Assembly (NCBI RefSeq): GCF_916700565.1
Contig: NZ_CAKAKO010000003.1
Span: 124,001-188,000, forward strand
Origin: Xenophilus sp. Marseille-Q4582
GTDB taxonomy: Bacteria; Pseudomonadota; Gammaproteobacteria; Burkholderiales; Burkholderiaceae_C
Length of the DNA stretch: 64,000 bases
Direction of reading: 5' to 3'
A program made the translations under genes and the position numbers. The notes under the pieces were generated by a model. The model was not told where the DNA came from and did not search any database. It was given only the letters and a program-made list of their open reading frames with translations. Every line of letters begins with the position of its first letter. Within the stretch, counting starts at the first letter, position 1. Positions 26,214 to 57,432 of this stretch are shown here, in pieces.

Positions 26214-26318
26214 CGTTTGCGCGCGGCATGGGAAAAGCCTGAAGATACGGGGGCGGTCTTCCAGCGAGGATGTGCCGCTTCGCTTGGAAGCGATGGACAT
26301 CTTCCCTAGAACCAAAGC

Positions 26319-27401
26319 ATGAACCGCATCGCCAAGGCTTGCTCGGGCTCCCTGCGATCTTGCTGGCTCCTGGCCTTGGCCTGGTGTGCCGCAGCGTCGG
26401 GATGGGCCCAGGAGGCGCCGGCCGTTCGCCTGCGCGTGGTCGGCGGGCTGGCCGGCGTCAGCCAGTACACGGTCCACGAGGAACGCTTCTGGGCCAGCGA
26501 ACTCGCCAGGCTCAGCAAGGGCCGCTACAGCGCCAGCATCGTGCCTTTCAACAAGGCCGGCGTCCCGGGCTCCGAGATGCTCAATCTCATGAAGCTGGGC
26601 GTCATCCCCATGGGCACGGCGCTGCTCAGCCAGGTGGCCAACGACAACCCCGACCTCGCGGCGCCGGACCTGGCCGGCCTGAGCCAGGACATGCCCACGC
26701 TGCGCCGCATCACCGCCGCCTACCGGCCCGTGCTGGAGGAAGCGCTGCGCGAGCGCTTCAACGTGCAGCTGCTGGCCGTGTATGTGTACCCGGCGCAGTC
26801 GATCTTCTGCCGCCACGCGCTGCAGCAGCTGTCGGATCTGCGCGGGCGCCGCATCCGTGTCTCGGGGGCCAGCCAGGCCGACCTCGTGCGGGCGCTCGAC
26901 GCCATCCCGGTCACCACCGAGTTCACCGAGATCGTCTCCAACATCACCTCCGGCAGCGCCGACTGCGCCATCACCGGCACCATGTCCGGCAACCTGATCG
27001 GGCTGCACCGCCACACCACGCACCTCTATTCCACGCCCATCAACTGGGGGCTGGGCGTGTTCGGCGTGAACCGCGACGCCTGGAACGCCATGCCCGCCGA
27101 GCTGCGCACCCTGCTGCTGGCCGAGCTGCCCCGGCTGGAGACGGCCGTGTGGAGCGAGGCCGAACGCGAGACCCTGGGCGGCGTGGCCTGCAACACCGGC
27201 AAGGGCGAATGCGTGCACGGCACCCCGGGACGCATGACCTGGGTCCGGGCCTCGGCCGCCGACCAGCGCCTGCTGCGCGAGCTGTTCCGCACGCGCGTGC
27301 TGCCGCGCTGGGTCGAGCGCTGCGGCGACGACTGCGCGCGCCTGTGGGAACAGACCATCGGAGCCGCCCTCGCCCCGGCGCCCGAGGGGCCGGCCCGATG
27401 A
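26319..27401 (+). CDS. TRAP-type (DctP-like) periplasmic substrate-binding protein
   Basis: A 360-residue exported protein with a signal peptide (CWLLALAWCAAASGWAQ). The mature part follows the TRAP solute-receptor pattern: RVVGGLAGVSQYTVHEERFW, ELARLSKGRYSASIVPFNKA, then DLRGRRIRVSGASQADLVRA and EIVSNITSGSADCAITG. No TRAP membrane subunits (DctQ/DctM) are nearby. Instead it overlaps, by four bases (ATGA), a membrane GGDEF-EAL gene, so it may feed a periplasmic ligand signal to that enzyme rather than serve transport. Four cysteines near the C-terminus (ACNTGKGEC, RCGDDC) could form disulfides. The coupled role is inference. Confidence 0.8.
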   Translation: MNRIAKACSGSLRSCWLLALAWCAAASGWAQEAPAVRLRVVGGLAGVSQYTVHEERFWASELARLSKGRYSASIVPFNKAGVPGSEMLNLMKLGVIPMGTALLSQVANDNPDLAAPDLAGLSQDMPTLRRITAAYRPVLEEALRERFNVQLLAVYVYPAQSIFCRHALQQLSDLRGRRIRVSGASQADLVRALDAIPVTTEFTEIVSNITSGSADCAITGTMSGNLIGLHRHTTHLYSTPINWGLGVFGVNRDAWNAMPAELRTLLLAELPRLETAVWSEAERETLGGVACNTGKGECVHGTPGRMTWVRASAADQRLLRELFRTRVLPRWVERCGDDCARLWEQTIGAALAPAPEGPAR

Positions 27402-30400
27402 CGCTGCGCCTGCCCCGGCGATCGGTGCTGGCCGTCTACGGCGTGGCCCTGGCCTTCATCACGGCCGTGGTCGTCACGGCCACGATGATGTGCCTGGACA
27501 CGCGCCGCCTCGCGCTGGCCAACGGCCGCGACCAGATCGAGCGCTACGTGAGCGGCGCCGAAGCAGCCCTCAACCGCAGCCTGCTGAGCATCGACATGCT
27601 CATCGCCGGCATGGGCGCGGCGATGGAGGGCACGCCGCCCGAGCTGCTGGCGCAGGCGGCCGCCCACCCCGCCACCAGCCTGCTGCTGCAGCGCACGGTG
27701 AGCCAGAACGTGGCAGTGCGTTACCTGGCCTACCTTGATCCGGCGCTGCGGGTGCTCAATTCCTCCGACCGGCGCGGCGCGCGCCTGCAGGTGCGCCTGC
27801 CCACGGAGTTCGTCAGCCGGCTGCAGCAGTTGCCGGTGTCCACGCTGGTCGTGAGCGCGCCGGCCGTGAGCGCCATGACCTCGCAGCGCGTGCTGTACTT
27901 CGGCCGCCGCATCGCGCTGGCGCAGGGCGCTGCGGTGCTGGTGATTGCCGAGGCGCGCCTGGATACGCTGAGCACCATCCTCGACCAGGGCGCCGACATT
28001 CCGGGCCTGGAAGTGACGCTGGAGGCCGACAACGGTCCGCTGCTGACCAGCCTGCCGCCGCGCGACGACCTGGTGGGACGGCCGCTCGAGCCGCCGCTGT
28101 CGGAAGCGCACAGCGCCAGCGAGCCGCGCGCCATGGCGGCACGCCTGAGCGGCGCACCCGGCCTGGTGGTCACGCGGCCCACGCTGCAGCGCAACCTCAT
28201 CATCAGCGCCAGCCTGCCGCAGGACGCCATGCTCCACGACTGGCGGCGCGAGCGGAACCTGGTCGCCGCGGTGGCCCTCGCCTTCGTGGCCATGATCCTG
28301 CTGGCCGCGGCGCTGGGACACCTGCAGCTGCGCCGCCAATGGCGCGACCGCGCGATGATCGTGCAGGCCAAGACCCAGCTGGACCAGGCACTGGAGTCCA
28401 TGGTCGAGGGCTTCGTGCTGCTCGATGCCAAGGGCCGGCTGCGGGCCTGGAACCACCGCTTCCTGGCGATCTTTCCGTGGCTGCGCAGCCTCGTCGGCGT
28501 GGGCGTGCCCTTGGGCCTGCTTCGCGAAACGACCGCCCGCCAGCTCAAGGCCGCCGGCATCGCGGTCATGCCCGACAGCTGGCTGGTCAGCGAAGAGTTC
28601 CATCAGCGCAACGAACAGGCGGAGCAGGAACTCCACCTGCCCGGCGGCCAGAGCGTGGTGCTCGTTCGCAGCCCCACGCCCGACGGCGGCGCCGTGTGCG
28701 TCTTCCGCGACATCACCGAGAAGCGCCAGCACCTGGCCGACATCATGCAGGGCAAGGCCCAGCTGCAGGCCACGCTGGACGCGCTGCCCGACGAGATGCT
28801 CGAAGTGGGGCTGGACGGGCTGTGCTTCCAGTTCCACACGCCGCGCAATGCGGTCTCGGCGCTGCTGGTCGAGCATCCCCTGGGCCGCCCGCTGACCGAG
28901 ATCCTGCCCACCGATGGCGCCAACGAGGTCATGGCCGCGTTGCGGGACGCATACGTCCCCGGCTATTCCAAGGGCCGCCAGTTCGAACGGCGCGCGGCGC
29001 AGGGCACGAGCTGGTTCGAGATCTCCGTTTCGCGCAAGATGGTGGGCGAAGGCAGCGACGCCCGCTTCATCGTGATCCTGCGCAACATCACCGAGACCAA
29101 GGTGGCCACGCGCGAGATCGAGCACCTGGCCTTCTACGACACGCTCACCGGCCTGCCCAACCGGCGGCTGCTGCTGCACCGGCTGCAGGCCAGCATCGAA
29201 AGCAATGCACGCAACAACCGCCAGGGCGCCCTGCTGTTCATGGACCTGGACGACTTCAAGCGCGTCAACGACGCGCACGGCCAGAGCGTGGGCGACCAGA
29301 TGCTGCGGCAGGCGGCGCAGCGGCTGCAGAGCGTTCTGGGCGACAGCGGCACGCTGGCGCGCATGGGCGGCGACGAGTTCGTGATCGTGCTGGAGAACCT
29401 CAGCCAGGACGCTGGCCTGGCCATGGTCCAGACCCGGGCCATGGCCGACCACGTGCTCGGCCGCATCGCCGAGCCCTTCGTGCTGGCCCGCGACACGCAC
29501 CACAGCACCTGCAGCATCGGCGTCTGCCTGTTCGGCGGCGCACCGCGTTCGCTGGAAGACCTGCTGCGCCAGGCCGACATCGCCACGTACTACGCCAAGG
29601 CCGCCGGCGGCAACGGGGTGCGCTTCTTCGAACCCGCGATGCAAACCACGGTCACGGCCCGCGCCACGCTGGACAGCGAGCTGCACGTGGCACTCAAGCA
29701 GCGCCAGTTCGTGCTGCACTACCAGCCGCAGATCAACGAGCAGGGCCAGGTGGTGGGCGCCGAAGCCCTGATCCGCTGGCAGCATCCGCTGCGCGGGCTG
29801 CTGCCGCCGGCCGGCTTCATCGAAGTGGCCGAGCAGACCGGCCTGATCGTGCCCATCGGCATGTGGGCGCTGGAGGAGTCCTGCCGGCAGCTCGAGCGCT
29901 GGAGCAACGACCCGCGGTACGCGCATCTCCGGCTGTCGGTCAACGTGAGCGCCCGCCAGTTCCGCCGCGACGACTTCGCCGAGGAGGTGCGCAACGTGCT
30001 CATCCGCACCGGCGCCCATCCGTCCCGGCTCAAGCTCGAACTGACCGAAAGCCTGCTGCACGAGAAAGTCAGCGAGACCATCAGCAAGATGAAATCGCTG
30101 GCCGCGATCGGCATCCAGTTCTCGATGGACGATTTCGGCACCGGCTTCTCGTCGCTGTCGTACATGGCGCAGCTGCCGCTGAACCAGCTCAAGATCGACA
30201 AGTTCTTCGTGCACTGCATCGGCATCAATCCCAAGGTGGAACTGATCATCCAGACCATCATCGGCATGGCGAAGAACCTGGACCTGGAGGTGGTGGCCGA
30301 AGGCGTGGAAACCGGGGCGCAGCTGGCTTTCCTGCGCGCCCACGGCTGCAATCTGAGCCAGGGCTACCTTTTCGGCAAGCCGATGACGCTGGCGCAGTTC

Positions 30401-30439
30401 GAGGCCCAGTTCGAGCGGCGGCTCGCGAGCGCCCCCTGA
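27398..30439 (+). CDS. Membrane-bound PAS-GGDEF-EAL cyclic-di-GMP enzyme
   Basis: A 1013-residue bifunctional-type c-di-GMP protein. An N-terminal membrane helix (residues ~10-30) and a second (~285-310, VAAVALAFVAMILLAAALGH) enclose a ~250-residue periplasmic sensor domain of Cache/CHASE-like character. Two PAS-like segments follow. The GGDEF domain has an intact GGDEF at ~657-661 (RMGGDEFVIVLEN) but no RxxD inhibitory site before it. The EAL domain starts at ~789 (GAEALIRWQHP), with DDFGTGFSSLSY, LKIDKFFV and EGVET motifs intact. Both synthesis and hydrolysis are therefore possible. It is coupled to the TRAP-type binding protein upstream and lies next to a large secreted repeat protein. Confidence 0.92.
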   Translation: MTLRLPRRSVLAVYGVALAFITAVVVTATMMCLDTRRLALANGRDQIERYVSGAEAALNRSLLSIDMLIAGMGAAMEGTPPELLAQAAAHPATSLLLQRTVSQNVAVRYLAYLDPALRVLNSSDRRGARLQVRLPTEFVSRLQQLPVSTLVVSAPAVSAMTSQRVLYFGRRIALAQGAAVLVIAEARLDTLSTILDQGADIPGLEVTLEADNGPLLTSLPPRDDLVGRPLEPPLSEAHSASEPRAMAARLSGAPGLVVTRPTLQRNLIISASLPQDAMLHDWRRERNLVAAVALAFVAMILLAAALGHLQLRRQWRDRAMIVQAKTQLDQALESMVEGFVLLDAKGRLRAWNHRFLAIFPWLRSLVGVGVPLGLLRETTARQLKAAGIAVMPDSWLVSEEFHQRNEQAEQELHLPGGQSVVLVRSPTPDGGAVCVFRDITEKRQHLADIMQGKAQLQATLDALPDEMLEVGLDGLCFQFHTPRNAVSALLVEHPLGRPLTEILPTDGANEVMAALRDAYVPGYSKGRQFERRAAQGTSWFEISVSRKMVGEGSDARFIVILRNITETKVATREIEHLAFYDTLTGLPNRRLLLHRLQASIESNARNNRQGALLFMDLDDFKRVNDAHGQSVGDQMLRQAAQRLQSVLGDSGTLARMGGDEFVIVLENLSQDAGLAMVQTRAMADHVLGRIAEPFVLARDTHHSTCSIGVCLFGGAPRSLEDLLRQADIATYYAKAAGGNGVRFFEPAMQTTVTARATLDSELHVALKQRQFVLHYQPQINEQGQVVGAEALIRWQHPLRGLLPPAGFIEVAEQTGLIVPIGMWALEESCRQLERWSNDPRYAHLRLSVNVSARQFRRDDFAEEVRNVLIRTGAHPSRLKLELTESLLHEKVSETISKMKSLAAIGIQFSMDDFGTGFSSLSYMAQLPLNQLKIDKFFVHCIGINPKVELIIQTIIGMAKNLDLEVVAEGVETGAQLAFLRAHGCNLSQGYLFGKPMTLAQFEAQFERRLASAP

Positions 30440-30792
30440 ACACGCCGGGCCCGCGCCTCGCCGCCCGGCCGGTGCCTCGGACAGGCAGATGCGCCGGCGC
30501 CGGGCCCGCCCGTGGCGCACGCACACGGAAAGGCCGTAAGACTTAGGAATTCATTCGCAGGTTGGCCCTTGTCCGCTGCCGTTACGGCGTTACGTAACGC
30601 GGGCCCGTAGCAGCGGCGGGCCATTAGGTTCTAAGTACTCATCGAAGTCTGTAATTCCTTGGACCTCATCCTGGAAAAAATCCTTTGTTCATGGGCACTT
30701 AGAACTTCGCATCGCAGCGCCACCGGGCGCCGGCCCCGGCGGCACGCATGTTGCCATTTGTCAGGCGTTCCAGCTCATACCTCCACAACGCC
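30440..30792 (+). promoter_or_regulatory. AT-rich intergenic region with palindromes upstream of the repeat protein
   Basis: About 350 bases without a supported gene, visibly less GC-rich than the flanks. It holds a perfect 14-base palindrome GCGTTACGTAACGC at 30587-30600. It also holds a long-range inverted repeat, GTTCTAAGT (30628-30636) and ACTTAGAAC (30697-30705). I see no convincing sigma-70 or sigma-54 box. It is the likely promoter and operator region for the downstream repeat-protein gene. Confidence 0.5.
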
Positions 30793-33700
30793 ATGACCGA
30801 CTCTGCCGCTGCCGCCTCCTCCGTGACTGCCGCTGCACCCGCCGCGCTTTCCTCCTCCATGCTTCCCCTGGCGCAAGCCGCCGTGACGCCGCTGGGCGGC
30901 GCCGCGGCGCCGGCCGCCGTCGGCACGTTGTCGCAGGCGACGCCGGGGGTGGTGATCGTGCGCTCGGGCGCGCGGCTTGCAGTCGAAGGGACGCAGAACC
31001 TGCTGCCCGGCGACCGTGTCCTCGTGCCCGAAGGCGGCCAGGCGGCGGTGAGCTTCCCGGGCTCGCCGGGCAACAAGGCGCCGCTCAATGGCACGCTCAC
31101 GGGCGGCACCGATGCCACCATTTCCACCACCCAATTGCCCGGCGGCCTGCAACAGGTCGACGTGGACCTGGCCACCGGCGACCTAGTGGTGGCGCCCGAG
31201 AACAGCGACGCGGACGCCGCCGCCCTGGCGGTGAAGAAGAAGCTGGCCGCAGGCGGCGCCGGCTTCGGCCTGGGCGACTTCGCCCTGGGCGCCCTGGGCG
31301 GCGCCGTGCTGGGCGCAGCCGTCAGCGGCGGCGGCGATGACGCCAGCCCCCTGTTCATTCCTGTGCCTGTGGATGATTCGGATGCGGACGCAGACGCCGA
31401 TGCGGACGCCGATGCGGACGCTGATGCGGACGCAGACGCTGACGCCGATGCGGACGCTGATGCCGATGCGGACGCTGATGCCGATGCGGACGCTGATGCC
31501 GATGCCGATGCCGATGCCGATGCCGATGCCGATGCCGATGCAGATGCAGACGCTGATGCCGATGCGGACGCCGATGCAGATGCAGATGCAGATGCAGATG
31601 CAGATGCAGACGCTGATGCCGATGCGGACGCCGATGCCGATGCCGATGCGGACGCTGATGCAGACGCCGATGCCGATGCGGACGCTGATGCAGACGCCGA
31701 TGCCGATGCGGACGCTGATGCCGATGCGGATGCGGATGCCGATGCCGATGCCGATGCGGACGCTGATGCCGATGCAGACGCCGACGCCGATGCGGACGCT
31801 GATGCGGATGCGGATGCGGATGCGGATGCGGATGCGGATGCGGATGCGGATGCGGATGCGGACGCTGACGCCGATGCCGATGCCGATGCCGATGCCGATG
31901 CCGACGCTGACGCCGATGCGGATGCGGATGCGGATGCGGATGCGGATGCGGACGCCGATGCAGACGCTGATGCTGATGCCGACGCAGACGCTGACGCTGA
32001 CGCAGACGCTGATGCGGACGCCGATGCAGACGCTGATGCCGATGCCGACGCAGACGCTGATGCGGACGCCGATGCGGACGCCGATTCCCTGCTCTCCCCC
32101 ACCGATGGCGCCGGTGGCATCCTTGTCGGTTCCCTGGGCGACCTGCTGGGGGTGAACAACGGCCATGCCCGCTCTTCGGACACCTCCACCCTAGGCAATG
32201 CGCTGAGCTCGATCGACGACACCGTCGACGCCTTGACGGACACCCTGGAAAACGTGCTCGCACCCGTGGTGGGCAGCAGCTTCCAGCGCGACGATCCCAA
32301 TGCGCTGGACCCGGCGGACAACTTCGTCGGCAGCCTGACCAGCAACATCGGCAGCAGCCTGAGCCCCTCGCTGGATGCGGTGCTGGGCGAAGGCGTCACC
32401 CAGGGCCTCGTTGGCGAGATCAACCGCCAGGTCGACTACCTGACGGACGCCATCACCAACGTGTTCGACGAATCCAACCTGGTGGGCGAGGTGCTGGCCA
32501 ACCTGGGGCTGGGCGGGCTCGGACAGGACCTGCTGGGCGCCGACTCGGCGGTGGCCGAAGTGCTGCAAGGCCTGCTGGGTGCGGAAGGCCCGGTCGGCGG
32601 GCTGGTCGCGCCCGAGGGCGTGGTCGGCGGCCTGCTGGCCCCCGAAGGCGTGGTCGGCCAGTTGTTCGCGGCCGACGGCGTGGTGGGCGGCCTGCTGCAG
32701 GAATCCGGGGCCGTGGGCCAGGTGCTCGACACCTTGCTGGGCGAGAACGGTGCCGTCAGCGGTCTGCTCAATGACATCTTCGGCCGCCAGCCCGTTCCGG
32801 GCGATGACACGGCGCTGCTGGACCCGACGTCCGGCGCCGTCGGCAACCTGCTGCCGGGCCTGGATTCGCTGCCCCTGCTGGGCGACCTGGGCCTGGGCGA
32901 AACGCTGGCGCCCGCCGCCGGCGTGGTCGACGGTCTGACCGACGCGGTCAGCAGCCTGCTGGTGCCCGTGTTCGGCGGTGCGTTCCAGGCCGACAACCCG
33001 AACTCGCTGGACGGCGTGGACAACTTGGTCGGCGATGTCGCGGGAGCGGTCGGCGGGCTGCTGTCGCCGGTGACCGACGGCCTGCTGGGCACCGACGTGC
33101 TCGATGGCGTACTGGGCGCCGTGACCACGCAGGTGGACTACCTGACCGACGGAGTGCATCACTTGGTGAGCGGCCTGCTCGGCGAGGAACTCCTGGACGG
33201 CGTGCTCGGCGAAGACGGCCTGCTGGGCGGCCTGCTCGGCGAGGCCGGCGGGCTGGGAGGCCTGCTGGGCGGCGACTTGCTCGGGGGGGATCTGCTGGGC
33301 GGCGTGCTCGGCGAAGACGGCCTGCTCGGCGGACTGCTGGGCGGTGACCTGCTCGGCGGCGACCTGCTCGGCGGCGTGCTCGGCGAGGACGGCCTGGTGG
33401 GGGGTCTGCTCGGCGGCGGCAACATCCTCGAAGGCGTGCTCGGCGAAGACGGCCTGGTGGGCGGCCTGCTCGGCGGCGACTTGCTGGGCGGAGACCTGCT
33501 GGGTGGCGTGCTCGGCGAGGACGGCATCGTCGGCGGCCTGCTCGGCGGCGATCTGCTGGGAGGTGATCTGCTTGGCGGCGTGCTCGGCGAGGACGGCATC
33601 GTGGGCGGTCTGCTGGGTGGCGGCAACATCCTCGAAGGCGTGCTCGGCGAAGACGGCCTGGTGGGCGGCCTGCTCGGCGGCGACTTGCTCGGCGGTGACC

Positions 33701-34773
33701 TGCTCGGCGGCGTGCTGGGCGAGGACGGCATCGTCGGCGGCCTGCTCGGCGGCGATCTGCTGGGTGGTGACCTGCTCGGCGGCGTGCTCGGCGAGGACGG
33801 TGTGGTCGGCAAGCTGACCGGTGGCGACCTGCTGGGTGGTGATCTGCTCGGCGGCGTGCTCGGCGAGGACGGTGTGGTCGGCGGCCTGCTCGACACCGTG
33901 GTCGGCGAAGACGGCCTGGTCGGCAAGCTCACCGGTGGCGACCTCCTGGGCGGCGATCTGCTCGGCGGTGACCTGCTCGGCGGCGTGCTGGGCGAGGACG
34001 GTGTGGTCGGCGGCCTGCTCGACACCGTGGTCGGCGAAGACGGCCTGGTCGGCAAGCTGACCGGTGGCGACCTGCTGGGTGGCGATCTGCTGGGCGGTGA
34101 CCTGCTCGGCGGCGTGCTCGGCGAAGACGGTGTGGTCGGCGGCCTGCTCGACACCGTGGTCGGCGAGGACGGCCTGGTCGGCAAGCTCACCGGTGGTGAC
34201 CTCCTGGGCGGCGACCTCCTGGGTGGCGACCTGCTGGGTGGCGATCTGCTGGGCGGTGACCTGCTCGGCGGCGTGCTCGGCGAGGACGGTGTGGTCGGCG
34301 GCCTGCTCGACACCGTGGTCGGCGAAGACGGCCTGGTCGGCAAGCTCACCGGTGGCGACTTGCTGAGTGGTGACCTCCTGGGCGGCGATCTGCTCGGCGG
34401 TGACCTGCTCGGCGGCGTACTGGGTGAGGACGGTGTGGTCGGCGGCCTGCTCGACACCGTGGTCGGCGAGGACGGCCTGGTCGGCAGCCTGCTGGGCTCC
34501 GCGCCCGCGCAGGAAGACCTGGTCGGCAGCCTGCTGGGCGAAGAGGGCTTGGTCGGTGGCGTGCTGGACACGGTGGTCGGCGACGACGGCCTGGTGTCCG
34601 GCCTGCTCGGCGACGAAGGGCTGGTCGGTGGCGTGGTCGACACCGTGCTGGGCAGCGAAGGCCTGGTCGGCGGCCTGCTCGCCCCGATCAGCAGCAGCGA
34701 CGGCGGCAACAGCGCTGGCCTCGGCGGCGCCCTGGCGCCGGTCAAGAACCTGCTGGGCGGCCTGCTGGGCTGA
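30793..34773 (+). CDS. Large Asp-Ala stalk and Gly-Leu repeat surface protein (putative type I-secreted adhesin)
   Basis: A 1326-residue repeat protein; I know no named family for the whole. In order: an N-terminal ~130-residue domain ([20 protein letters not shown], then [18 protein letters not shown]) resembling FecR-like or adhesin retention modules; a Gly-rich segment; 117 Asp-Ala dipeptides (residues ~197-430); then two ~80-residue homologous modules separated by EGVVGGLL-type repeats. A ~440-residue field of GDLLG and VLGEDGxVGGLL repeats ends in a short Gly/Leu tail. No Sec signal and no classical RTX nonapeptides are visible, and a type I secretion cassette lies downstream. That supports secretion through the ABC-HlyD-TolC system, but this is inference. 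An in-frame ATG at 30748 is an alternative start; neither has a clear ribosome binding site. Confidence 0.75.
31381..32082 (+). repeat. Asp-Ala dipeptide repeat tract, 117 units (702 bases)
   Basis: An uninterrupted run of GAY-GCN codon pairs. Synonymous codons vary (GAT/GAC; GCC, GCG, GCA, GCT) in recurring 6-, 12- and 18-base blocks, which suggests expansion by slippage or unequal exchange followed by drift. It encodes a strongly acidic stalk comparable in idea to the Ser-Asp stalks of staphylococcal adhesins. The tract keeps all frames open and generates long spurious Ser-Ala frames on the other strand. Confidence 0.97.
32215..32466 (+). repeat. Internal module copy 1 of the repeat protein
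   Basis: Encodes [20 protein letters not shown], then [19 protein letters not shown] and, at the end, [13 protein letters not shown]. It aligns with the segment at 32920-33168 through the shared pattern FQxDxPNxLDxxDNxVG ... LSPxxD ... QVDYLTD. Each copy is followed by Gly/Leu repeats, so the protein appears built from two duplicated module-plus-repeat blocks. Confidence 0.8.
32920..33168 (+). repeat. Internal module copy 2 of the repeat protein
   Basis: Encodes [19 protein letters not shown], then [19 protein letters not shown] and, at the end, [13 protein letters not shown]. It is the partner of the module at 32215-32466. Conserved Asp/Asn positions (D-x-PN-x-LD-x-x-DN) could bind metal, but this is speculation. 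Confidence 0.8.
33178..34491 (+). repeat. C-terminal GDLLG / VLGEDG repeat field
   Basis: About 1.3 kb of tandem in-frame repeats mixing a 15-base unit (GDLLG) with longer units ([20 protein letters not shown] followed by LVGKLTG). The number of consecutive GDLLG units between long units varies (two to five), the pattern left by unit gain and loss. GDLLG fits the shape of pentapeptide repeats ([small][D/N]L-x-x), so a right-handed beta-helix is possible. Confidence 0.9.
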
Positions 34774-37511: not shown

Positions 37512-39365
37512 ATGCTGAAGTACCTGTTGCCCACCCAGCTGGTCGCGCCCCGAAGCGCGGACGCCGACGGAGAAGCACCGCCGAGCCCGCACGCCAGCGC
37601 GATGGAACGGGCCTTCGGCGCGGCCTACCCGCTGATCCGGCGCGCCGCCTGGTGGTCGCTGCCCATCAGCCTGTCGGGCCTCCTGCCCTCCATCTTCCTG
37701 CTGCAGGTCTACGACCGCGTGATCTACCGCAGCGCCACCTCCACGCTGTGGGCGCTGGTCAGCGGCATCCTGTGCTTCCTGGCCATCGAGTTCTGGCTGC
37801 GCACGCGCCGCTCCCGGCTGCTGCGCGATGCGGGCGCGACCATCGACCACGAGGTGTCGAACGCGCTGCTGCAATCCATGCTGGCACGCCCGCTGCGTGC
37901 GCTGGAGCAGCGCCCCGCCTCCGTCTGGTTCCTGCTGTTTCGCGACGTGGGCGCCGTGCGCGGCACCCTTACGGGCGGCCTGGCGCAGTCGCTGTTCGAC
38001 CTGCCGATGGCGATCTTCGCCCTGGCGGTCATCGCCATCGTGGCGCTGCCCGTGCTGCCGGTGGTGCTGCTCTTCCTGGCGGTGATGTCCTTCCTGGCCT
38101 GGTGGTGGGCCGACGAGGTGCGCGCCGGCCGCGTGGAGGAAGCGCAGCGCAGCCGCAACCTGGAGCGCATGACGGCCGAGCTGTGCAACGCCCGCGAGAC
38201 CCTCAAGACGCAGGCCAACGACGCCCCCAACATCGCGCGCTGGCGCGAGGCCTACAACGACTGGCTGGCCGAGAGCTTCCGCAAGAACGGCGAGATCGAG
38301 CAGGCGCGCGACGGCACCACCGTGCTGCTGACCATTTTCTCCACCGTGGTCATCACCGTGGGCGCGGTGGCCGTCATGCAGCAGTGGATGACGGTGGGCG
38401 GCCTGATCGCCTCCAACATGCTGGCCATCAAGGCGCTGCAGCCGGTGGCCGGGCTGGTGTCGAACTGGCGCTCGCTGGCCATCGCGGCCGAGGCCGCCAA
38501 GCGGCTGGAGAAGGTGCTGGCCGAGCCCGTCGAGCAGCCGGCCCAGGAAGTGGAGCTGCCCCAGCCGCAGGGCCTGCTGACGCTGCGCGACCTCAGCTTC
38601 GGCTTCCACGAATCGCTGCCGCCCGTGCTGGAGAACCTCGACCTGCGCATCGGCGTGGGCGGCCTGCATGCCATCGTGGGCCGCAACGGCGCCGGCAAGT
38701 CCACGCTGGCCAAGCTGCTCGCGGGCCTGTACCGGCCCACGCGCGGCAGCGTGGAGATCGGCGAGTACGACCTGGCGCAGTTCGGCCGCGTGGACCTGGC
38801 CGGCTGGATCAGCTACCTGCCGCAGGATGCCTACTGGTTCGCCGGCCCCATCATCGACAGCCTGCGCCGCCACGCGCCGGGCCACAGCGACGAGCAGATC
38901 ATCGGCGCCTGCCGCCTGTCGGGCGCGCACGACTTCATCTCGCGCCTGCCCGGCGGCTACGCCACCGAAGTGGGCGAAGGCGGCACCGGCCTGTCGGTGG
39001 GTGAGCGGCGCAAGCTGGCCCTGGCGCTGGCCTTCCTGCGCAACCCGTCGGTGCTGATCCTGGACGAGCCCAGCAACGACCTCGACTTCCAGAGCGAGCG
39101 GCAGTTGCTGGGCACGCTGCTGGCCGTGGCCCGCAAGCGCACGGTGATCGTGGTCACGCATTCGCTGCGCATCGTGTCGGCGGCCACGCAGGTCTACCAC
39201 GTCACGGGCAACGGCACGGTGGAGCAAGGCAGTGCCGCGTTCATGGTGCCGCGCCTGTTCGGCGTGCGCAAGGCTGCGGCGCCCTCCAGCATCGCGGGCG
39301 AGGAAGCGGCCGTGCAGGCGGCGGTGGAAAGTGCCGAACTGGCGGTGGCCGCCGCGCGCGGCTGA
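37512..39365 (+). CDS. Type I secretion system ABC transporter (permease/ATPase)
   Basis: A 617-residue fusion of a transmembrane exporter domain (about residues 40-330) and an ABC ATPase. Walker A is GRNGAGKST (~390-398), Walker B is VLILDEPSNDLD, and the signature is LSVGERRKLALALA instead of LSGGQ. There is no N-terminal C39 peptidase domain and no room for a C39-like domain, matching the PrtD/LapB-lacking-CLD type of type I exporters. The first hydrophobic segment follows a ~45-residue cytoplasmic N-terminus. It forms one unit with the HlyD and TolC genes downstream, and the upstream repeat protein is the likely substrate. Confidence 0.9.
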   Translation: MLKYLLPTQLVAPRSADADGEAPPSPHASAMERAFGAAYPLIRRAAWWSLPISLSGLLPSIFLLQVYDRVIYRSATSTLWALVSGILCFLAIEFWLRTRRSRLLRDAGATIDHEVSNALLQSMLARPLRALEQRPASVWFLLFRDVGAVRGTLTGGLAQSLFDLPMAIFALAVIAIVALPVLPVVLLFLAVMSFLAWWWADEVRAGRVEEAQRSRNLERMTAELCNARETLKTQANDAPNIARWREAYNDWLAESFRKNGEIEQARDGTTVLLTIFSTVVITVGAVAVMQQWMTVGGLIASNMLAIKALQPVAGLVSNWRSLAIAAEAAKRLEKVLAEPVEQPAQEVELPQPQGLLTLRDLSFGFHESLPPVLENLDLRIGVGGLHAIVGRNGAGKSTLAKLLAGLYRPTRGSVEIGEYDLAQFGRVDLAGWISYLPQDAYWFAGPIIDSLRRHAPGHSDEQIIGACRLSGAHDFISRLPGGYATEVGEGGTGLSVGERRKLALALAFLRNPSVLILDEPSNDLDFQSERQLLGTLLAVARKRTVIVVTHSLRIVSAATQVYHVTGNGTVEQGSAAFMVPRLFGVRKAAAPSSIAGEEAAVQAAVESAELAVAAARG

Positions 39366-39409
39366 GGGCCGGCCCGCGACACGGCAGCACGCACGGGAGT
39401 GAGAGACAC

Positions 39410-40738
39410 ATGAAGAACGACCTGCCCCAGGTCCTGCAGCAACTGCAGCAGGCCAAGCCGGAGGCGGACGCCGCCCCCGCCCCGCCCCCGCGCCGCCGGC
39501 GGCGCTGGCTCATCGGCGCCGCAGTCGGCGTGCTGGCCGTGGTGGCGCTGGGCTTTCCGATGGAAAGCGTGGTCGTGGCCTCCGGCCGCGTCATCCCCTC
39601 GGACCGCGTCAAGTCCATCCAGCACCTGGAAGGCGGCATCGTGCGCGCCGTGCTGGTGCGTGAAGGCCAGGCCGTGCGCCAGGGCATGGCGCTGGTGGAG
39701 ATCGACCTGGGCGGCACCAGCCTGAACCTGGAAGAGCTGACGGCCCGCTATGCGGCCAACCAGGCCACGCGCGTGCGCCTGCGCGCCGAAAGCCTGGGCC
39801 AGCCGCTGTCGGCCGACCAGTTCGAGGCCGGCACCGACGAAGCCGTGGTGCGCGGCGAGATGGGCGCCTTCCAGGCGCGCGCGCTGGAACAGCGCGGCGT
39901 GATGGCGGGCGCCGTGGCCGCGCTGGAGCAGGCGCGCAGCCGGCAGATGGAGCAGCACGCCAAGATCGCGGGCCTCACCGAGCGGCTGGGCCTGATGCAG
40001 ACCGAGCTGAAGATCTCGGAGCAGCTGCTGGCCGAAAAGCTCATCGGCCAGATGGAGGTGCTGGAAAAGCGCCGCCAGGCCGAAAGCATGCGCGCCGAAC
40101 TCGCGGTGGCGCGGCAGGGCCTGGTCTCGGCCCAGGCTTCCATCGGCGAGGCCCAGGCCAAGATGGAAGAAGCCGCCGGGCGCTTCCGCCGCCGCGCGTC
40201 GGACGAGCTGGCGACGGTGGAGCGCCAGCTCTCCAGCCTTTCCGAAGACCTGGCCCGCGCGCGCACCCAGCGCTCGCGCACCATCGTCACGGCCCCCGCC
40301 GACGGCATCGTCAAGGGCCTGCGCAGCGCCAGCCCGGGCTGGGTGGTCAAGCCCGGCGAAGCGATCATGGAAGTGGTGCCGGTGGAGGACGAGATCCTCA
40401 TCGAGGCGCGCCTGAGCCCCAACGACCGCGGCTTCGTGCACGTGGGCCAGAAGACGCGCGTGAAGGTCACGGCCTATGACTTCCTGCGCTACGGCACGGT
40501 GGACGGCCAGGTGATGCTGGTGGCCGCCGACGCCGACCGCGACACCACCCTGCCCACCGCGCCGCCCTACTACCGGCTGCTGGTCAACACCACGCAGGGC
40601 CACGTGGGCCGGCCCGAGAACCGCATCACCGCCGGCATGGAGGCCGAGGTGGACCTGCTGGTGGGCACCGATCCGTTCATCTGGTATTTGCTGCGCCCCG
40701 TGCTCAAGACCCAGCGCGAAGCCTTCCGCGAGCCATGA
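39410..40738 (+). CDS. Type I secretion membrane fusion protein (HlyD family)
   Basis: A 442-residue adaptor. A short cytoplasmic N-terminus ends in five arginines before a single membrane helix (WLIGAAVGVLAVVALGF). Then comes a half-lipoyl segment (VVVASGRVIPSDRVKSIQHL) and a long coiled-coil hairpin (~90-290). The second half-lipoyl and beta-barrel follow (TIVTAPADGIVKGLRSASPG) with the HlyD C-terminal end (RITAGMEAEVDLLVG). It bridges the ABC exporter and the outer-membrane TolC. The stop overlaps the TolC start by four bases. Confidence 0.93.
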   Translation: MKNDLPQVLQQLQQAKPEADAAPAPPPRRRRRWLIGAAVGVLAVVALGFPMESVVVASGRVIPSDRVKSIQHLEGGIVRAVLVREGQAVRQGMALVEIDLGGTSLNLEELTARYAANQATRVRLRAESLGQPLSADQFEAGTDEAVVRGEMGAFQARALEQRGVMAGAVAALEQARSRQMEQHAKIAGLTERLGLMQTELKISEQLLAEKLIGQMEVLEKRRQAESMRAELAVARQGLVSAQASIGEAQAKMEEAAGRFRRRASDELATVERQLSSLSEDLARARTQRSRTIVTAPADGIVKGLRSASPGWVVKPGEAIMEVVPVEDEILIEARLSPNDRGFVHVGQKTRVKVTAYDFLRYGTVDGQVMLVAADADRDTTLPTAPPYYRLLVNTTQGHVGRPENRITAGMEAEVDLLVGTDPFIWYLLRPVLKTQREAFREP

Positions 40739-42294
40739 AGCGTTCCCGTCCCGCCGTCCCCGCGCTCACGGGCCTGGCCGCGGCCCTGCTGCTGCAGGGG
40801 CCGCTGCCGGCCGGGGCGCAGTCCCCGCCCGCGCCGCCGCCTGCCCTCGCCCTGTCGCCCGCGCCGCGGCTGGCCACGCCCTCCGTCCAGGTCTCGGGCG
40901 ACATCCACCGCATCAAGCAGGCGCTGCAGCAGCTGGCGCTGGAGCACCCCGAGGTGCAGTCCGCGCAGGCCGCCGCGGCCACCAGCGGCTTCGAACTGGA
41001 AGCCGCGCGCCAGGCGCGCTATCCGCGCTTCAAGGTGGGCAGCGCCACGGGCAGCTACAACAGCGGCGCCGACGGCGCCTCGTCGCAGAGCTACCAGCTG
41101 GTCACGGCCGAAGCGCGCATGAGCCTGATCGACGGCGGCGCCATGAGCGCGCGCGTGCGCGCCGCCGAGGCCGGCAGCCTGGCGCAGCAGGAGGCCGCCG
41201 GCAGCACCTCGCAGAAAGTGGTGCTGGACGCCATCACCGCCTACCTGCAGCTGCAGCGCTTCGACCTGCAGCGCGAGCTGGCCGGCAATGCCACGCGCGT
41301 GGTGGCCGAGCTCTCGCGCGCCGAGCAGCGGCGCGTGAACCTGGGCGCCGCCGGCCAGAACGACCTGCGCATGGCGGCCGCGCGGCAGGCCAGCATCGCG
41401 GCGCGCGAATCGAATTTCGCGGCGCAGCGCGACGAGGCGCTGGCCAAGTTCCAGAGCTACTTCGGCTTCGCGCCCGAACCGCGCCGGCTGCCCGTGCTGG
41501 CCACGCCCGAGAGCTGGGTCATCGATTCGCAGGCCGAGGCGCTGCGCCGCGCCGAAAGCCGCAGCACCGAGCTCGCCGAGGGCCGCGGGCGCGTGCAGAA
41601 GGCCGAAGCCCTGGTCGAGCAGCAGGAAGCCAGCGTGTGGCCCACGGTGGAGGCCGTGGTCGTCAAGACCAAGGACCCGCGCGGGGTGTCTCCGTCCGAG
41701 CCCACGCGCGCGGCGCTGGAATTGAACTGGAACTTCGGCAGCGGCTTCGACCGCCAGCTGCGCGTGAAGTCCGCGCTGGCGGAAGTCGAGAACCAGCGCG
41801 CCAAGCTCGAGAGCGCGCAGCGCGCCCTGTTCGAGGCCACGGCCTCGGCCTGGGGCCGGGCGCAGTCGGGCCGCGAGCGCGAACGCCAGTTGCTGGAGGC
41901 GGTGCGCGAATCGGGCGAGGCCTTCCGCGGCCGCCGCCGCCTGCTGGAGTTCGGGCGCGAGACGCTGCCCAACGTGCTGGACGCGCAGCTGGACTACTAC
42001 ACGCTGCTGCAGGACTACATCGACGCCGTATTCGACCAGCGCATCACCGAGTTCCGCCTGGCCCGCGCCACGGGCGAACTGCGCGTGCAGCCCGACATGC
42101 ACAACCCCTGGGTGGACCGCGTGTTCGGCAGCCAGAGCGGCCCGCTGCTGGACGAGGAAGGCGTGCTGGGCCTGGAATGCGTGGCCGGCAACCGCACCGT
42201 CTGCCCGCCACGCCGGGCGCTGGGCCTGGGCCGGAGCGCCGGCAGCGGCACGCCGCTGGCCCTGCGCGCCGAGGGCCGCCTGCGCACCCGCTGA
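40735..42294 (+). CDS. TolC family outer membrane channel for type I secretion
   Basis: A 519-residue outer-membrane efflux protein. It has a signal peptide (LTGLAAALLLQGPLPAGAQ), then the first helical repeat (ALQQLALEHPEVQSAQAAAA) and the second half from about residue 280 (LAEGRGRVQKAEALVEQQEA). The C-terminal part contains FGRETLPNVLDAQLDYYTL, typical of TolC-like proteins. A ~60-residue Gly/Arg-rich tail after the barrel is unusual. The start ATG is coupled to the HlyD stop. This is the last gene of the cassette, and it converges with the sigma-54 regulator 26 bases away. Confidence 0.9.
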   Translation: MKRSRPAVPALTGLAAALLLQGPLPAGAQSPPAPPPALALSPAPRLATPSVQVSGDIHRIKQALQQLALEHPEVQSAQAAAATSGFELEAARQARYPRFKVGSATGSYNSGADGASSQSYQLVTAEARMSLIDGGAMSARVRAAEAGSLAQQEAAGSTSQKVVLDAITAYLQLQRFDLQRELAGNATRVVAELSRAEQRRVNLGAAGQNDLRMAAARQASIAARESNFAAQRDEALAKFQSYFGFAPEPRRLPVLATPESWVIDSQAEALRRAESRSTELAEGRGRVQKAEALVEQQEASVWPTVEAVVVKTKDPRGVSPSEPTRAALELNWNFGSGFDRQLRVKSALAEVENQRAKLESAQRALFEATASAWGRAQSGRERERQLLEAVRESGEAFRGRRRLLEFGRETLPNVLDAQLDYYTLLQDYIDAVFDQRITEFRLARATGELRVQPDMHNPWVDRVFGSQSGPLLDEEGVLGLECVAGNRTVCPPRRALGLGRSAGSGTPLALRAEGRLRTR

Positions 42295-45520: not shown

Positions 45521-45570
45521 GGCTCCATCCTCTCAAAAGTTGGAGCCTCCTCAAAAACCGGGGCGGTTCA

Positions 45571-46614
45571 CCTTGGCACGAACACCCACATTGGCAAGAG
45601 GCTGCAAGGGAACATTGATCTGGCCGGACACAAAGGAAGGTTCACCCGACGCGTTGGCCACCTGCAACCCGACCAGCAGCAGGTTGAGAACGCTGACGTC
45701 CGTGTCTAACGCTGTCGAGGGGTCCCGCGTATCCAGGTCCAAGGAAAGCAACCCATTTTGGGATGCCGTTTTCAGAACAGCCAGAGAGAGTCGTTCGAGT
45801 GGCACGCCCAGGTTGAGCAACACATCCAAGGCATTGAGCGCGACGTCCACCGCTGGATCGACGCTATCGCGGGGCAGCAGCCCCGCTGTTCCCGAGAGAA
45901 GTTCACCGATGTCGAGATCGGCTGCGGCCAATTCATCGTAGGTTCCGACAGCTAAACCAAGAGCATTCGCTAACCCAAGCAAGTTCACGTTGGTGTTGGC
46001 CAAACCCTCGTAATCGGCCAACGACAGGGTCACGTCGGTTCCCAACAAGAGACTCAGCAACTTGTTCAAAGCGCCGGCATTGAGGCGTGCAACACCGGAG
46101 CCAACGGTGAACGAAGCCTGGGGGCCATCCATCTGTGCAACGGCTCTCGCTTCAATCTGGAGAGAGGGAAGAAAAGGCAGGAGTGGGTCGTATGACGCGG
46201 TCACTGTCACCTTCAACGCATCGTAGTTTTCGCCAGTTCCTACGGCGACAAGACCATCCACCTCCTCCAGGGCATCCTCAGCAGGCCGAACCCAGCGACC
46301 GCATGCGACAGCCACCGTTGTTGTTGTTAGGGCCAAATTCTCCAGATTCCCGTCAGCGTTGCTTTGAGCCACTCTTTCCGCCGTGGTGCAACTTTCCGGT
46401 TCAATTCGCAATGCGCCTGACAAGGCTGCGAGATCAGCGACTTTCTGTAGCTCTCTTTTTTGGAAAGAGTAGACGCCGATCTCTGTTCCGAGCACAGCGA
46501 TAACGATCACAAACGCTGCGATCGCGAAGTTCACCACGATGGAGCCGCGTTGCGTCGAGCGGCGCCCTGCGACTCCATGCCCCTTTTTATAATAACGCAA
46601 GACAGATGATTCAT
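45571..46614 (-). pseudogene. tadG: tadG, 5' fragment with an apparent N-terminal frameshift
   Basis: Encodes a TadG-like protein: RRSTQRGSIVVNFAIAAFVI and VIAVLGTEIGVYSFQKRELQ (membrane anchor), then KVADLAALSGALRIEPESC, the TadE/G-like hallmark. The only well-placed start is the ATG at 46612-46614, preceded by GAGGAG and following tadF by 22 bases, but it is in a different frame from the body. One extra base in the run ATAAAAAGGGG (46580-46590) would join them, giving MNHLSCVIIKKGHGVAGRRS. The body frame has only a TTG at 46598-46600. The fragment ends in a stop just inside the IS. Confidence 0.75.
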
Positions 46615-46636
46615 GGTGGCTCCTCAGCAGACCCCT

Positions 46637-47110
46637 TCACGGCATCGACTCGACAGCCGCCCGGCTGTGCAGGGTTTCAGGAATCCAAGAATATGGAAGC
46701 ACAGCAGGAAAGAGTTGCAGGTAATCGCTCCGGAATCGATAGGTGACGTCCAGCGCGTTGGGTGCCGACGGGCCAAACGTAAAGGCCCGGTCCACCCAGT
46801 TCCGTCGGCTCTGAGCGCTGGCATTGTGTGGTGCAGGTGCGATCATCGAGCGTGCCAGGGATTCGCGAACCACCAGTTTCGCTTCCACATCGCTCGCACC
46901 CAGTGCAAGGGCACGAGCACCGTCTTCCACCGCGCGGGAGAGAGCCTGCTGGGCATACAGAGCCAATCCAAAAGTGGTCAGCCCATACAGCAACGGCATC
47001 AGAGCGAGCAGGATCAAGGCAAACTCTATGGCGGCAATGCCGCGCTGACACCGGCCTCGTCGTCCCCGACGCGCCCATAGCTTGGCACTTTTGGCGAGTG
47101 CCGCTGTCAC
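46637..47110 (-). CDS. TadE/TadF-like pseudopilin
   Basis: A 157-residue TadE-like protein. A basic N-terminus (WARRGRRGRCQRGIAAIEFA) leads into a hydrophobic helix (LILLALMPLLYGLTTFGLAL). The G-x-A-A-[I/V]-E-F motif is the processing and assembly region cleaved by the prepilin peptidase. The start is a GTG (47108-47110) overlapping the preceding gene's stop (GTGA). It is a minor pseudopilin of the Tad pilus. Confidence 0.85.
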   Translation of the reverse strand: MTAALAKSAKLWARRGRRGRCQRGIAAIEFALILLALMPLLYGLTTFGLALYAQQALSRAVEDGARALALGASDVEAKLVVRESLARSMIAPAPHNASAQSRRNWVDRAFTFGPSAPNALDVTYRFRSDYLQLFPAVLPYSWIPETLHSRAAVESMP

Positions 47111-47625
47111 AGCAAGGTCCTCCCGTCCAGCAGCACACTCGCCTGACCAATCACAGTTTGCGGCATGCCAAACCCGGGGAAAGGCGGGATCACCTGCGCC
47201 AGGCCTGATGCCTCCACACGAACCAGAATACGGCACGCGCCGGGCCATCCCTCCTGAGGCAGGCACTCGGCAATGCTGGGTTCGGCTGACGAACAGTCAT
47301 CGGGGTCGCCGAGGCGCTGCACGCACGTGCGAATCCCAGGAGTGACCGGAAGCCAGGTTCCCAGCCGGCGAAGGACCATCGACTCAGCGGCCCGCTTCCG
47401 GTAGCTCATCTGATCGCCGACTTCCGGTACACGCACCCGCAATGCGGCACGGGCGCCGTCTTCCGCAGCATGCTGGAGAGCTAGTCGATAAGTGAACAGC
47501 AGGGAATAGCAGATCAGCGCGTAGATCAGGCCAAAGAACACCAGGAACACCAAGGCGAACTCCATCGCATACACCCCCCGCTGACTGTGACGGCGGGCGC
47601 CCAGGTAAATGAGTCCGGCGGTCAT
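47107..47625 (-). CDS. TadE-like minor pseudopilin
   Basis: A 172-residue TadE-family protein with SQRGVYAMEFALVFLVFFGL, then YALICYSLLFTYRLALQHAA and a soluble domain with four cysteines (CVQRLGDPDDC, CLPQEGWPGAC) that probably form two disulfides. The start ATG at 47623-47625 has GGGAG upstream. The longer open frame overlapping the DUF3613 gene is discarded. It overlaps the next gene by four bases. Confidence 0.85.
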   Translation of the reverse strand: MTAGLIYLGARRHSQRGVYAMEFALVFLVFFGLIYALICYSLLFTYRLALQHAAEDGARAALRVRVPEVGDQMSYRKRAAESMVLRRLGTWLPVTPGIRTCVQRLGDPDDCSSAEPSIAECLPQEGWPGACRILVRVEASGLAQVIPPFPGFGMPQTVIGQASVLLDGRTLL

Positions 47626-47651
47626 GGCATCGCTCCCGTACAGCACACGCT

Positions 47652-48089
47652 TCAGCGCCCGCCCGCGCCCTGACCTGACTTGGCGCCAACCGAAGACTGG
47701 AAGCGCTCGGGAATCGGGTGCTCGAAGCTCTTGAGATAGCGCTCGCGGCTGCGCTGGGCGATTTCGCCGGGCAGCGGACGCGGCACAGGTGAGGCCAGCT
47801 GCCCGGTGCGCTGCAGAGCCAGCAAGTGCTGCGTGCTTTCGCCCACGCGTGGTGCGGCGGGCGCCATCGGTTCGGCGGCCGTCGGCTCCGCGGCCGTCGC
47901 AGCGCTGGCCCCGACCGGCGCGGCGCTCTGCGCGAGCGGCGCGGCGTCGACGACCACGGGTGCGACCGTCGGCGCCGCCAGGGCCTGCACCGGAGAGCCC
48001 GCCTGGGCCCCGGCGGCAAGCGGAAGTGCGGCCGCCAGCAGGCCGGCCAGCAGCGGCGCCGCGGACCGGGTCCGAAATTCGGGGTGCAT
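47652..48089 (-). CDS. DUF3613-domain exported protein of the Tad locus
   Basis: A 145-residue exported protein. A signal peptide (SAAPLLAGLLAAALPLAAGA), an Ala/Pro-rich linker, and a C-terminal segment, RVGESTQHLLALQRTGQLAS, then GEIAQRSRERYLKSFEHPIP, match the DUF3613 pattern. The family is found in Burkholderiales Tad loci next to tadD; its function is unknown. The start is placed at the ATG at 48087-48089, eight bases after an AAGGAGG sequence. An ATG six codons upstream overlaps the tadD stop and is less well placed. Confidence 0.8.
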   Translation of the reverse strand: MHPEFRTRSAAPLLAGLLAAALPLAAGAQAGSPVQALAAPTVAPVVVDAAPLAQSAAPVGASAATAAEPTAAEPMAPAAPRVGESTQHLLALQRTGQLASPVPRPLPGEIAQRSRERYLKSFEHPIPERFQSSVGAKSGQGAGGR

Positions 48090-48103
48090 CTTCAAACCCT
48101 CCT

Positions 48104-49180
48104 TCATGGTGTAGGCGCAGGTCCCGGCTGCGCCGGTTCGCTGCGCACTTCCTTCCAGGTCGAACTGCGCAGCGCCAGCGGGGCGCGGCGGATGCGCACC
48201 TGGGTGGCGGCAGCGCCCATTGGCATGCCCGCTTCGACGACCGCAGGAGCCGCCGCATCGCGGCCTTCCGGTGCGCCGGCCAGCGCCGCTGCGGCAGCGG
48301 CCCGCGCCTGCGCCGCCGTTTGCTGCACGGCGGCGCGCGAGGCCTCGCCCTGCTTGAGCGCCGCGAGCACCTGCTCGGCCTGCGCGCCCTGGTCGCTGGC
48401 CAGCAGCCAGGCGGCCAGGTTGAGCTGGGCGCGCAGGTCCTCGGGTTGCAGCTGCGCGGCCTGCATCAGCGGCACGCGGGCCTGCGCCAGTTGGCCGGCC
48501 AGCAGCCGTGCATAGCCCAGGTCGCCGATCACGCGCGCATCGGCCGGGCTGCGCTGGCGCGCCTGCTCCAGCCAGGTCGCGGCCTGGACGAAATCGCCCT
48601 CGCCGCCCGCCAGCAGCCCCAGGCCGTGCAGGCCGGCCGCGGCGTCGGCCGCATTCGGCGCCCGCGACAGTTGCGTGTACGCCGCGCGGCTGGCGGCTGT
48701 CTGGCCGGTCTGGCGCAGCGCGTCGGCGCGCAGGCGCAGCACGGTGGGCGTGCTGCCGCCCTGCTGTTCCAGCACGTCGATGTGCGCGAGCGAGGCATAC
48801 CAAAGGCCCTCGCGCTGCATCTGCTCGACCAGGCGGCGGTGCGTGGCCACGGGGTCGGATTCGGGCGCGGCGGCTTCGGCGGTGCGCGCCTGAGCCTGTG
48901 CCTCGGCTGCGGCCGGGTAATGGGTCTTGGGCGCGCCGCAGCCGGCCAGCAGCGCCAGCCCGGCCAGGGCCAGCGCGCCGCGTGACGCCAGAAGGTGGCG
49001 TCGGTGTTTTTCCGCCGGGCCGCCCCAAGGAAAAACGCGCCCCCTCGGGGGGCAGCGGACCTCGCGAAGCGGGGAAGCGTGGGGGTCGTTTTTTTCCGCC
49101 GGGCCGCCCCAAGGAAAAACGCGCCCCCCTGGGGGGCAGCGGACCTCGCGAAGCGGGGAAGCGTGGGGGTTGTTGTTCAT
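48104..49180 (-). CDS. tadD: TPR lipoprotein TadD with an 84-bp repeat translated at its N-terminus
   Basis: A 358-residue protein. The C-terminal ~275 residues are a lipoprotein with lipobox LLAGC (Cys81) and TPR repeats (RVIGDLGYARLLAGQLAQAR, AAQLQPEDLRAQLNLAAWLL), as expected for TadD, the pilotin-like Tad component. The ATG (49178-49180) overlaps the tadC stop (ATGA) and looks original. Residues 5-60 are two translated copies of an intergenic hairpin repeat (PHASPLREVRCPP, then GRVFPWGGPAEK). This pushes the signal sequence to residues ~63-80. Whether the protein is still exported and lipidated is doubtful. No alternative ATG, GTG or TTG lies between the repeats and the signal sequence. 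Confidence 0.8.
   Translation of the reverse strand: MNNNPHASPLREVRCPPGGRVFPWGGPAEKNDPHASPLREVRCPPRGRVFPWGGPAEKHRRHLLASRGALALAGLALLAGCGAPKTHYPAAAEAQAQARTAEAAAPESDPVATHRRLVEQMQREGLWYASLAHIDVLEQQGGSTPTVLRLRADALRQTGQTAASRAAYTQLSRAPNAADAAAGLHGLGLLAGGEGDFVQAATWLEQARQRSPADARVIGDLGYARLLAGQLAQARVPLMQAAQLQPEDLRAQLNLAAWLLASDQGAQAEQVLAALKQGEASRAAVQQTAAQARAAAAAALAGAPEGRDAAAPAVVEAGMPMGAAATQVRIRRAPLALRSSTWKEVRSEPAQPGPAPTP
49007..49170 (-). repeat. Two tandem copies of a hairpin intergenic-type repeat inside tadD
   Basis: Copies at 49007-49086 and 49091-49170, period 84 bases, differ at only a few positions. Each contains a strong GC hairpin (CGCCCCC...GGGGGCAGCGG) and TTTTTCCGCCGGGCCGCCCC at one end. I recall this element as a multi-copy repeat in Comamonadaceae, where its accidental translation reads HASPLREVRCPP; that is from memory. 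Because the period is 28 codons, both copies keep the tadD frame open. Confidence 0.85.
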
Positions 49181-52410: not shown

Positions 52411-52425
52411 ACCATCCTCCCCCGG

Positions 52426-55268: not shown

Positions 55269-55269
55269 A

Positions 55270-56283: not shown

Positions 56284-56315
56284 GGGCTCTTGCGTTCTGG
56301 GATTTGCAGCGCAGC

Positions 56316-56756: not shown

Positions 56757-56788
56757 GGCCGCTGCAGCGCACAGCGGGCGGCCCTCAT

Positions 56789-57247: not shown

Positions 57248-57255
57248 ACCCCGAA

Positions 57256-57432
57256 CTACTGGCCAGTCATGGCATTCGCGATGTTCTGGAACGTGGTGGT
57301 CAATGCAGTCCCAAAAAAGCCATCCTCAGCGAACACTGCGACCAGAATGATCGCCATCAGGCCGGCAATGATCCCGTATTCCACGGCGGTCGCCCCTTCT
57401 TCGTCATTCCAGAATGCCAGCACCTTGTCCAT
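57256..57432 (-). CDS. flp: Flp pilin (major pilus subunit)
   Basis: A 58-residue pilin. The leader MDKVLAFWNDEEG is followed by ATAVEYGIIAGLMAIILVAV; cleavage is expected after Gly13, leaving the conserved Glu+5 and Tyr+6 of Flp pilins. A strong GGAAGGAG ribosome binding site lies five bases before the ATG at 57430-57432. It is the first gene of the Tad operon and presumably the most highly expressed. The C-terminus is short (FQNIANAMTGQ). Confidence 0.95.
   Translation of the reverse strand: MDKVLAFWNDEEGATAVEYGIIAGLMAIILVAVFAEDGFFGTALTTTFQNIANAMTGQ

Follow-up and report, generated by a model that had tools for sequence, protein, structure and literature searches.

In the available part of PMC5588039, BapA of Paracoccus denitrificans is described as a protein of 2,211 residues with 891 Asp-Ala (DA) repeats, encoded by a gene that adjoins bapBCD and needed for an attachment that is strongly stimulated by 10 mM Ca2+. 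Similarly, the accessible text of PMC4647330 reports Ser-Asp (SD) tracts of 501, 701, and 79 pairs in Acinetobacter BAPs, 148 Ala-Asp (AD) pairs in a BAP of A. haemolyticus, and an N-terminal insertion of 38 residues that contains DA repeats. Here, we analyzed a stretch of 64,000 nucleotides from Xenophilus sp. Marseille-Q4582 (the window), in which one gene product, P0001, carries 117 consecutive Asp-Ala dipeptides. The first-pass annotation of this DNA had considered an Asp-Ala stalk unfamiliar in Gram-negative type I substrates, but the P. denitrificans and A. haemolyticus proteins show that stalks of this sort have been described before, in a few other bacteria; the window protein belongs to a little-studied family of them in soil and water bacteria. 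No account of this family was found among the matches listed in a literature search on Asp-Ala repeats. We consider it likely that the gene product is an adhesin secreted by the type I route, retained at the outer membrane through its N-terminal domain and equipped with a polyanionic stalk.

Translation of the frame at 30748-34773 (+), which yields 1,341 amino acids with no internal stop and a net charge of -253 by residue count, reproduced exactly the uninterrupted 702-base (Asp-Ala)117 run that had been annotated, lying between ...PVDDS on its N side and DSLL... on its C side. The protein probably starts at Met16, near which the frames of relatives also have a Met (MTDS.., MATTTT.., or MTLQ..). 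A chance origin of (DA)117 is out of the question, and its reading frame is supported by the family described below, because 71 of 73 members have a tract of alternating Asp and a partner residue (D-x) in the frame of the same N-terminal domain (N-domain). The hydrophobic 19-residue stretch that precedes the tract has a mean Kyte-Doolittle value of 1.55, compared with a median of 1.62 (range 0.3-2.01) for 71 members. Downstream of the tract, Leu, Val, and Ile of the C-terminal region are spaced with a period near 4.8 residues, and the terminal motif [LIV]Lxx[LI][LI][GA] was found in 42 of 47 complete family members, the window protein counted in.

The N-domain used as a query revealed relatives in 12 of 100 sampled genomes, its own included (9 of 15 of the same genus), and among named genomes a scan located 69 loci, spread over Variovorax, Pseudacidovorax, Xenophilus, Hydrogenophaga, Xylophilus, Comamonas, and one uncultured proteobacterium. 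Together with the window and three further loci (L132-L134), these form the set of 73 members. Of the 71 D-x tracts behind the N-domain, 55 are intact and comprise 17-146 units (median 57); the longest pure DA run found reaches 140 (L053), so that 117 units are long but not extreme. Counted with a pattern that requires Asp at every odd position, the 3,816 partner residues were A 3303, S 388, G 83, H 38, T 3, and Q 1, and a separate check of the family tracts found no D-x runs broken by six or fewer residues. The tract of a Comamonas member (L087) is (DS)128, and that of L060 is mostly DS. Only L038 and L099 gave no D-x tract: in L099, an uncharged repeat occupies its position, while L038 (Variovorax paradoxus) may reflect a natural deletion or an assembly collapse. 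A further locus outside the 73, L109, has (PTDPTN)n at this position. Within its own genome, P0001 gave four weaker matches beyond its own gene (E 2.3e-17 to 9.2e-4), including the antisense of the tract; L003, L004, and L005 are short, weak tract matches elsewhere in that genome (E 1.9e-14 to 9.2e-4).

At the DNA level, the window tract uses GAT 77, GAC 40, GCC 43, GCG 35, GCT 21, and GCA 18 times and contains seven of the eight possible synonymous 6-base units, most commonly GATGCG (35), GATGCC (28), and GACGCT (20). The annotation's statement that the peptide is kept while synonymous codons vary is supported. The GAT:GAC ratio is reversed in the rest of the gene (21:90), and 69 of 71 family tracts are shifted likewise, with a median GAT share of 0.55 inside and 0.20 outside the tract of the same genes. 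The recurrent codon blocks that had also been noted are real but weak, with unit-order autocorrelation mainly at lags 1, 2, and 3 (z = 3.3, 2.4, and 3.4; 500 shuffles each) and extremes of +1.95 and -2.27 at lags 4-30. Their interpretation as the mark of an old, drifting tract is not supported: when the unit strings of the window and of L032, its nearest named relative (86 DA; ABC transporter 87-88% identical to that of the window), were aligned, the score was hardly above shuffles (24, against 19.9 +/- 2.7 with a maximum of 28 in 200 shuffles). Since the two strings are not clearly shared, the DNA array was probably remade while the peptide was kept, presumably through gain and loss of units; two V. 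paradoxus loci with long blocks 90-95% identical differ by 29 DA units in tract length. The folding value of the tract mRNA (-261) was weaker than that of all 60 recodings with the codon usage of the gene (mean -308, standard deviation 15) and stronger than those of 60/60 own-codon shuffles and 60/60 unit shuffles, which argues that codon composition, not codon order, lowers RNA structure. Minus-strand open frames of 574, 327, and 302 amino acids across the tract were rejected as genes, given that arrays of period 6 tend to lack stops in several frames and that no support for them was found.

The predicted-structure model of the N-domain matches 5ix9, and the domain is thus retention-like by fold. 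At the sequence level, the window N-domain did not match NF033682 (LapA retention module) up to E 1, and the eight families to which at least one of the 37 members of alignment A3 had a match up to E 10 did not include it either. The N-domain likewise had no match to the BapA prefix domain (NF033677, PF22783) in Pfam or NCBIfam, and membership in BapA_N and, by sequence, in the LapA type was rejected in the absence of any family-model match. Comparison of A3 with one LapA-type module by hhalign gave nothing (probability 0.2), while A2 against two LapA-type and four FecR-type rows gave a probability of 80 (E 1.3e-5, 53 columns), a partly circular result because A2 itself had brought in the four FecR rows. 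In the PDB, a sequence search with A3 produced no convincing match (best E 0.06). We set aside weak matches of the window N-domain to ESPR (Pfam, E 8.9) and PRK04081.1 (NCBIfam, 0.26), and NCBIfam matches among the A3 members to YPDG_rpt (6, best 0.0049), choice_anch_M (8, 0.018), and PRK14560.1-6 (in 8, best 0.03). The LapG protease, searched as PF06035, which we take to be the LapG family, had no match in the own genome (0/1), and the control search matched in 1/14. An RTX region of C-terminal glycine-rich Ca2+-binding nonapeptides was not found: Pfam gave no family of any kind for P0001 at E 0.01 or for its C region up to E 10, and a regular expression for the nonapeptide gave one match. 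Membership in the MSCRAMM proteins was also rejected, as the NCBIfam models gave tract-driven scores of 117-130 bits, far under cut-offs of 999-2500 (SdrD 130 versus 2500), and no LPxTG was found. Family models can thus score such proteins, below cut-off, as relatives of staphylococcal Sdr/Clf through the tract alone.

The annotation's view of the protein as a type I substrate is probably right, since genes for an ABC transporter, an HlyD-type protein, and a TolC-type channel lie downstream (37512-42294), as expected beside a LapA-type adhesin (Table 1). The ABC transporter and the channel scored under the cut-offs of their TIGR models (TIGR03375, 361 versus 693 bits; TIGR01844, 125 versus 225 bits). 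Among 47 complete family genes with at least 3 kb downstream, the window counted in, 31 are followed by a homologue of P0002, and in 18 of these the ABC gene also falls within the available stretch; in the other 13, this stretch stops at or soon after the P0002/Mur region. The 16 family genes without P0002 look like extra copies. P0002 itself gave weak hints only (GH76/GH127, E 0.16 and 0.28) and no convincing relative in the PDB (best E 0.28). The PAS-GGDEF-EAL gene just upstream, matched among the named loci only in L032, makes a link to cyclic di-GMP possible, in line with biofilm control. The wider surroundings include Tad/Flp pilus-like genes (TadE/G-like, secretin, and TPR proteins) at 45551-60730 (-), as well as a GC-rich 84-base tandem duplication (49007-49174, 96% matches) within a long minus-strand frame at 48104-50257.

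Table 1. Features of the adhesin locus, in window positions
Feature	Position	Strand	Detail
PAS-GGDEF-EAL protein	26270..30439	+	just upstream of adhesin gene
Adhesin gene (P0001)	30793..34773	+	likely start is Met16 of the longest frame (30748-34773, 1341 aa)
N-terminal all-beta domain, retention-domain-like plug	30922..31194	+	residues 44-134, numbered from Met16
Hydrophobic Gly/Ala-rich stretch of 19 residues	31267..31323	+	precedes tract; FAL-xx-LGG block conserved in alignment A1
(Asp-Ala)117 tract, proposed acidic stalk	31381..32082	+	residues 212-445 of the 1341-aa frame
C-terminal region, 896 aa	32083..34770	+	Leu/Gly/Val-rich imperfect repeats; ends in NLLGGLLG
P0002, 671 aa	35265..37280	+	conserved neighbour; no Pfam match
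Type I secretion ABC transporter	37512..39365	+	ABC_tran 6.2e-25; TIGR03375 1.4e-107
HlyD-type membrane fusion protein	39410..40738	+	TIGR01843 325 bits, cut-off 208.65
TolC-type outer membrane channel	40735..42294	+	OEP 2.7e-38; TIGR01844 5e-36

Type I secretion exports its substrates C-terminus first. By analogy, the exporter encoded downstream would thread the adhesin out from its C-terminal end, while the N-terminal beta domain, given its match to 5ix9, would fold in the periplasm. We propose that this domain is too wide for the channel and that the protein therefore remains plugged in it. The acidic spacer foreseen in the annotation is supported as part of this reading: next to the plug, the tract with its 117 Asp would form a stretched, disordered, polyanionic stalk of at most ~80 nm (by arithmetic, at 0.36 nm per residue), which could raise the Leu/Gly-rich repeat region beyond lipopolysaccharide and capsule. 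A role of the tract in driving export or in binding calcium is also possible.

That the tract acts chiefly as a calcium-binding polyanion or mineral nucleator, changing stiffness or crosslinking cells as extracellular Ca2+ rises, is a tentative alternative that we hold to be rather unlikely. Such a role for Ca2+ is a speculation of the authors in the available part of PMC5588039, where the Ca2+-stimulated attachment of P. denitrificans needs the Asp-Ala protein; the effect is, however, not tied to the tract by experiment in that text. The Asp register showed no break in the family tracts while the partner residue varies, which would suit Ca2+ binding, although Asp at odd positions is built into the tract pattern. 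Against this, dense charge is not obligatory, because L109 and L099 carry other repeats at the tract position. Export as the main function of the tract, with the unfolded polyanion preventing back-sliding in the channel and speeding type I transport, seems improbable to us. The tract does adjoin the retention-like domain, the part exported last, and similar tracts follow LapA-type modules or, by eye, precede a barrel-like end, as (DG)88 does in L139. However, one would look for a ratchet close to the C-terminus, which exits first, and tract length varies widely, with some members having short or no tracts. The decoration of the tract is more doubtful still: cyanophycin synthetase attaches arginine to polyaspartate, and the tract could by analogy be an encoded polyaspartate-like backbone, its side chains modified by P0002 before export to give a decorated polymer stalk. 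This idea, to which we give very little credence, is based on the Mur-ligase-type (amide ligase) domain that in 25 of 31 loci goes along with the P0002 homologue; in L039 (11650-14718), the one homologue that was translated, P0002 is fused to the middle and C domains of a Mur ligase (PF08245, PF02875). The Mur part is absent from the window and five other loci, which speaks against modification there. A literature search found no paper that brings together Mur ligases, type I secretion, and adhesins.

Neutral slippage, with the tract as a passive microsatellite that a linker tolerates, would account for the changing lengths, the local runs of identical units, and a unit order not clearly common to the nearest relative. 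We nevertheless judge it quite improbable, as seven unit types require at least six base changes from one ancestor, all synonymous, for which the chance is ~0.0001 (by arithmetic with equal rates, 4/18 single changes of GATGCG being synonymous), and the D-x tract persists in all but two family members, with no short breaks detected. An assembly or sequencing artefact was rejected and is extremely unlikely. Contig ends do cut off 19 of the 73 family frames, in 12 cases no more than 85 residues past the tract, and 6 further frames contain N. However, the longest exact repeat inside the window tract is 56 bases, so that reads longer than this can place it, and in-frame tracts of (DA)65-DG-(DA)34 and (DA)128 occur in two V. 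paradoxus plasmid records with the source field 'Legume root,PacBio whole genome assembly'.

Beyond the family, the tract was used as a query against two genome samples, one of the phylum and one of the class; at a threshold of 1e-20 it matched in 9 of 398 and 4 of 369 genomes, respectively, with the own genome and G149 in both. Inspection confirmed true D-x tracts in seven other genomes. LapA-type modules (NF033682) are closely followed by a very long D-A/S tract in G149 (L136) and by a very long D-T tract in G723 (L150), and BapA_N is followed by D-S in G263 (L138), whose 3389-amino-acid frame has more than 1000 Asp-Ser pairs in several blocks. In these three proteins with an N-terminal type I anchor, the tract starts ~25-30 residues past the matched domain. 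With the N-terminus off the contig, G203 and G133 show a D-A-rich tract with RTX-like repeats (by eye) and G400 shows (DA)53 in a repeat protein, while the G401 protein (L139) is autotransporter-like by eye, its (DG)88 lying just before the C-terminal barrel-like region. The G192 and G716 matches are Glu/Pro-rich, and that of G144 was left unclassed. D-x tracts are rare in these samples, and the pattern of a tract behind an anchor is built on few cases. Taken together, these results suggest that surface-retained Gram-negative adhesins repeatedly include a bare acidic dipeptide stalk. In the cases found here, it was made of D-A, D-S, or D-T and lay shortly after an N-terminal anchor of one of three kinds, namely that of the present family, the LapA type, or the BapA type. 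Within the family, where the peptide is kept while the DNA is rewritten and the length changes, the members offer a natural length and composition series for stalk function.

Compared with known systems, the window protein shares an alternating acidic dipeptide stalk with staphylococcal Sdr/Clf proteins, in which the stalk adjoins the anchoring end and an LPXTG motif provides the cell-wall anchor; these are Gram-positive proteins, however, and their models are matched through the tract only. The DDxP proteins that a literature search on Variovorax, type I secretion, adhesins, and biofilms brought up are another family, as far as the available text describes them. Acinetobacter BAPs, to the extent that their source covers them, are giant biofilm proteins whose repetitive region contains long alternating Ser-Asp or Ala-Asp tracts, but they have an N-terminus of the BAP type, whereas the window N-domain has no match to NF033677 or PF22783. 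Going by the accessible account of P. denitrificans BapA, both proteins are very acidic, have a pure Asp-Ala tract between distinct N and C regions, and are encoded directly upstream of type I exporter genes, while BapA differs in repeat number and in its alphaproteobacterial host; this is a likeness of tract, charge, and gene order. With LapA/MpIBP-type adhesins, the window protein shares the N-terminal all-beta domain, the adjacent type I exporter, and an extended middle, but differs in lacking an NF033682 match, an RTX region, and a LapG match in its genome, and in having a dipeptide tract as its stalk, although L136 and L150 show that LapA modules can also be followed by D-x tracts.
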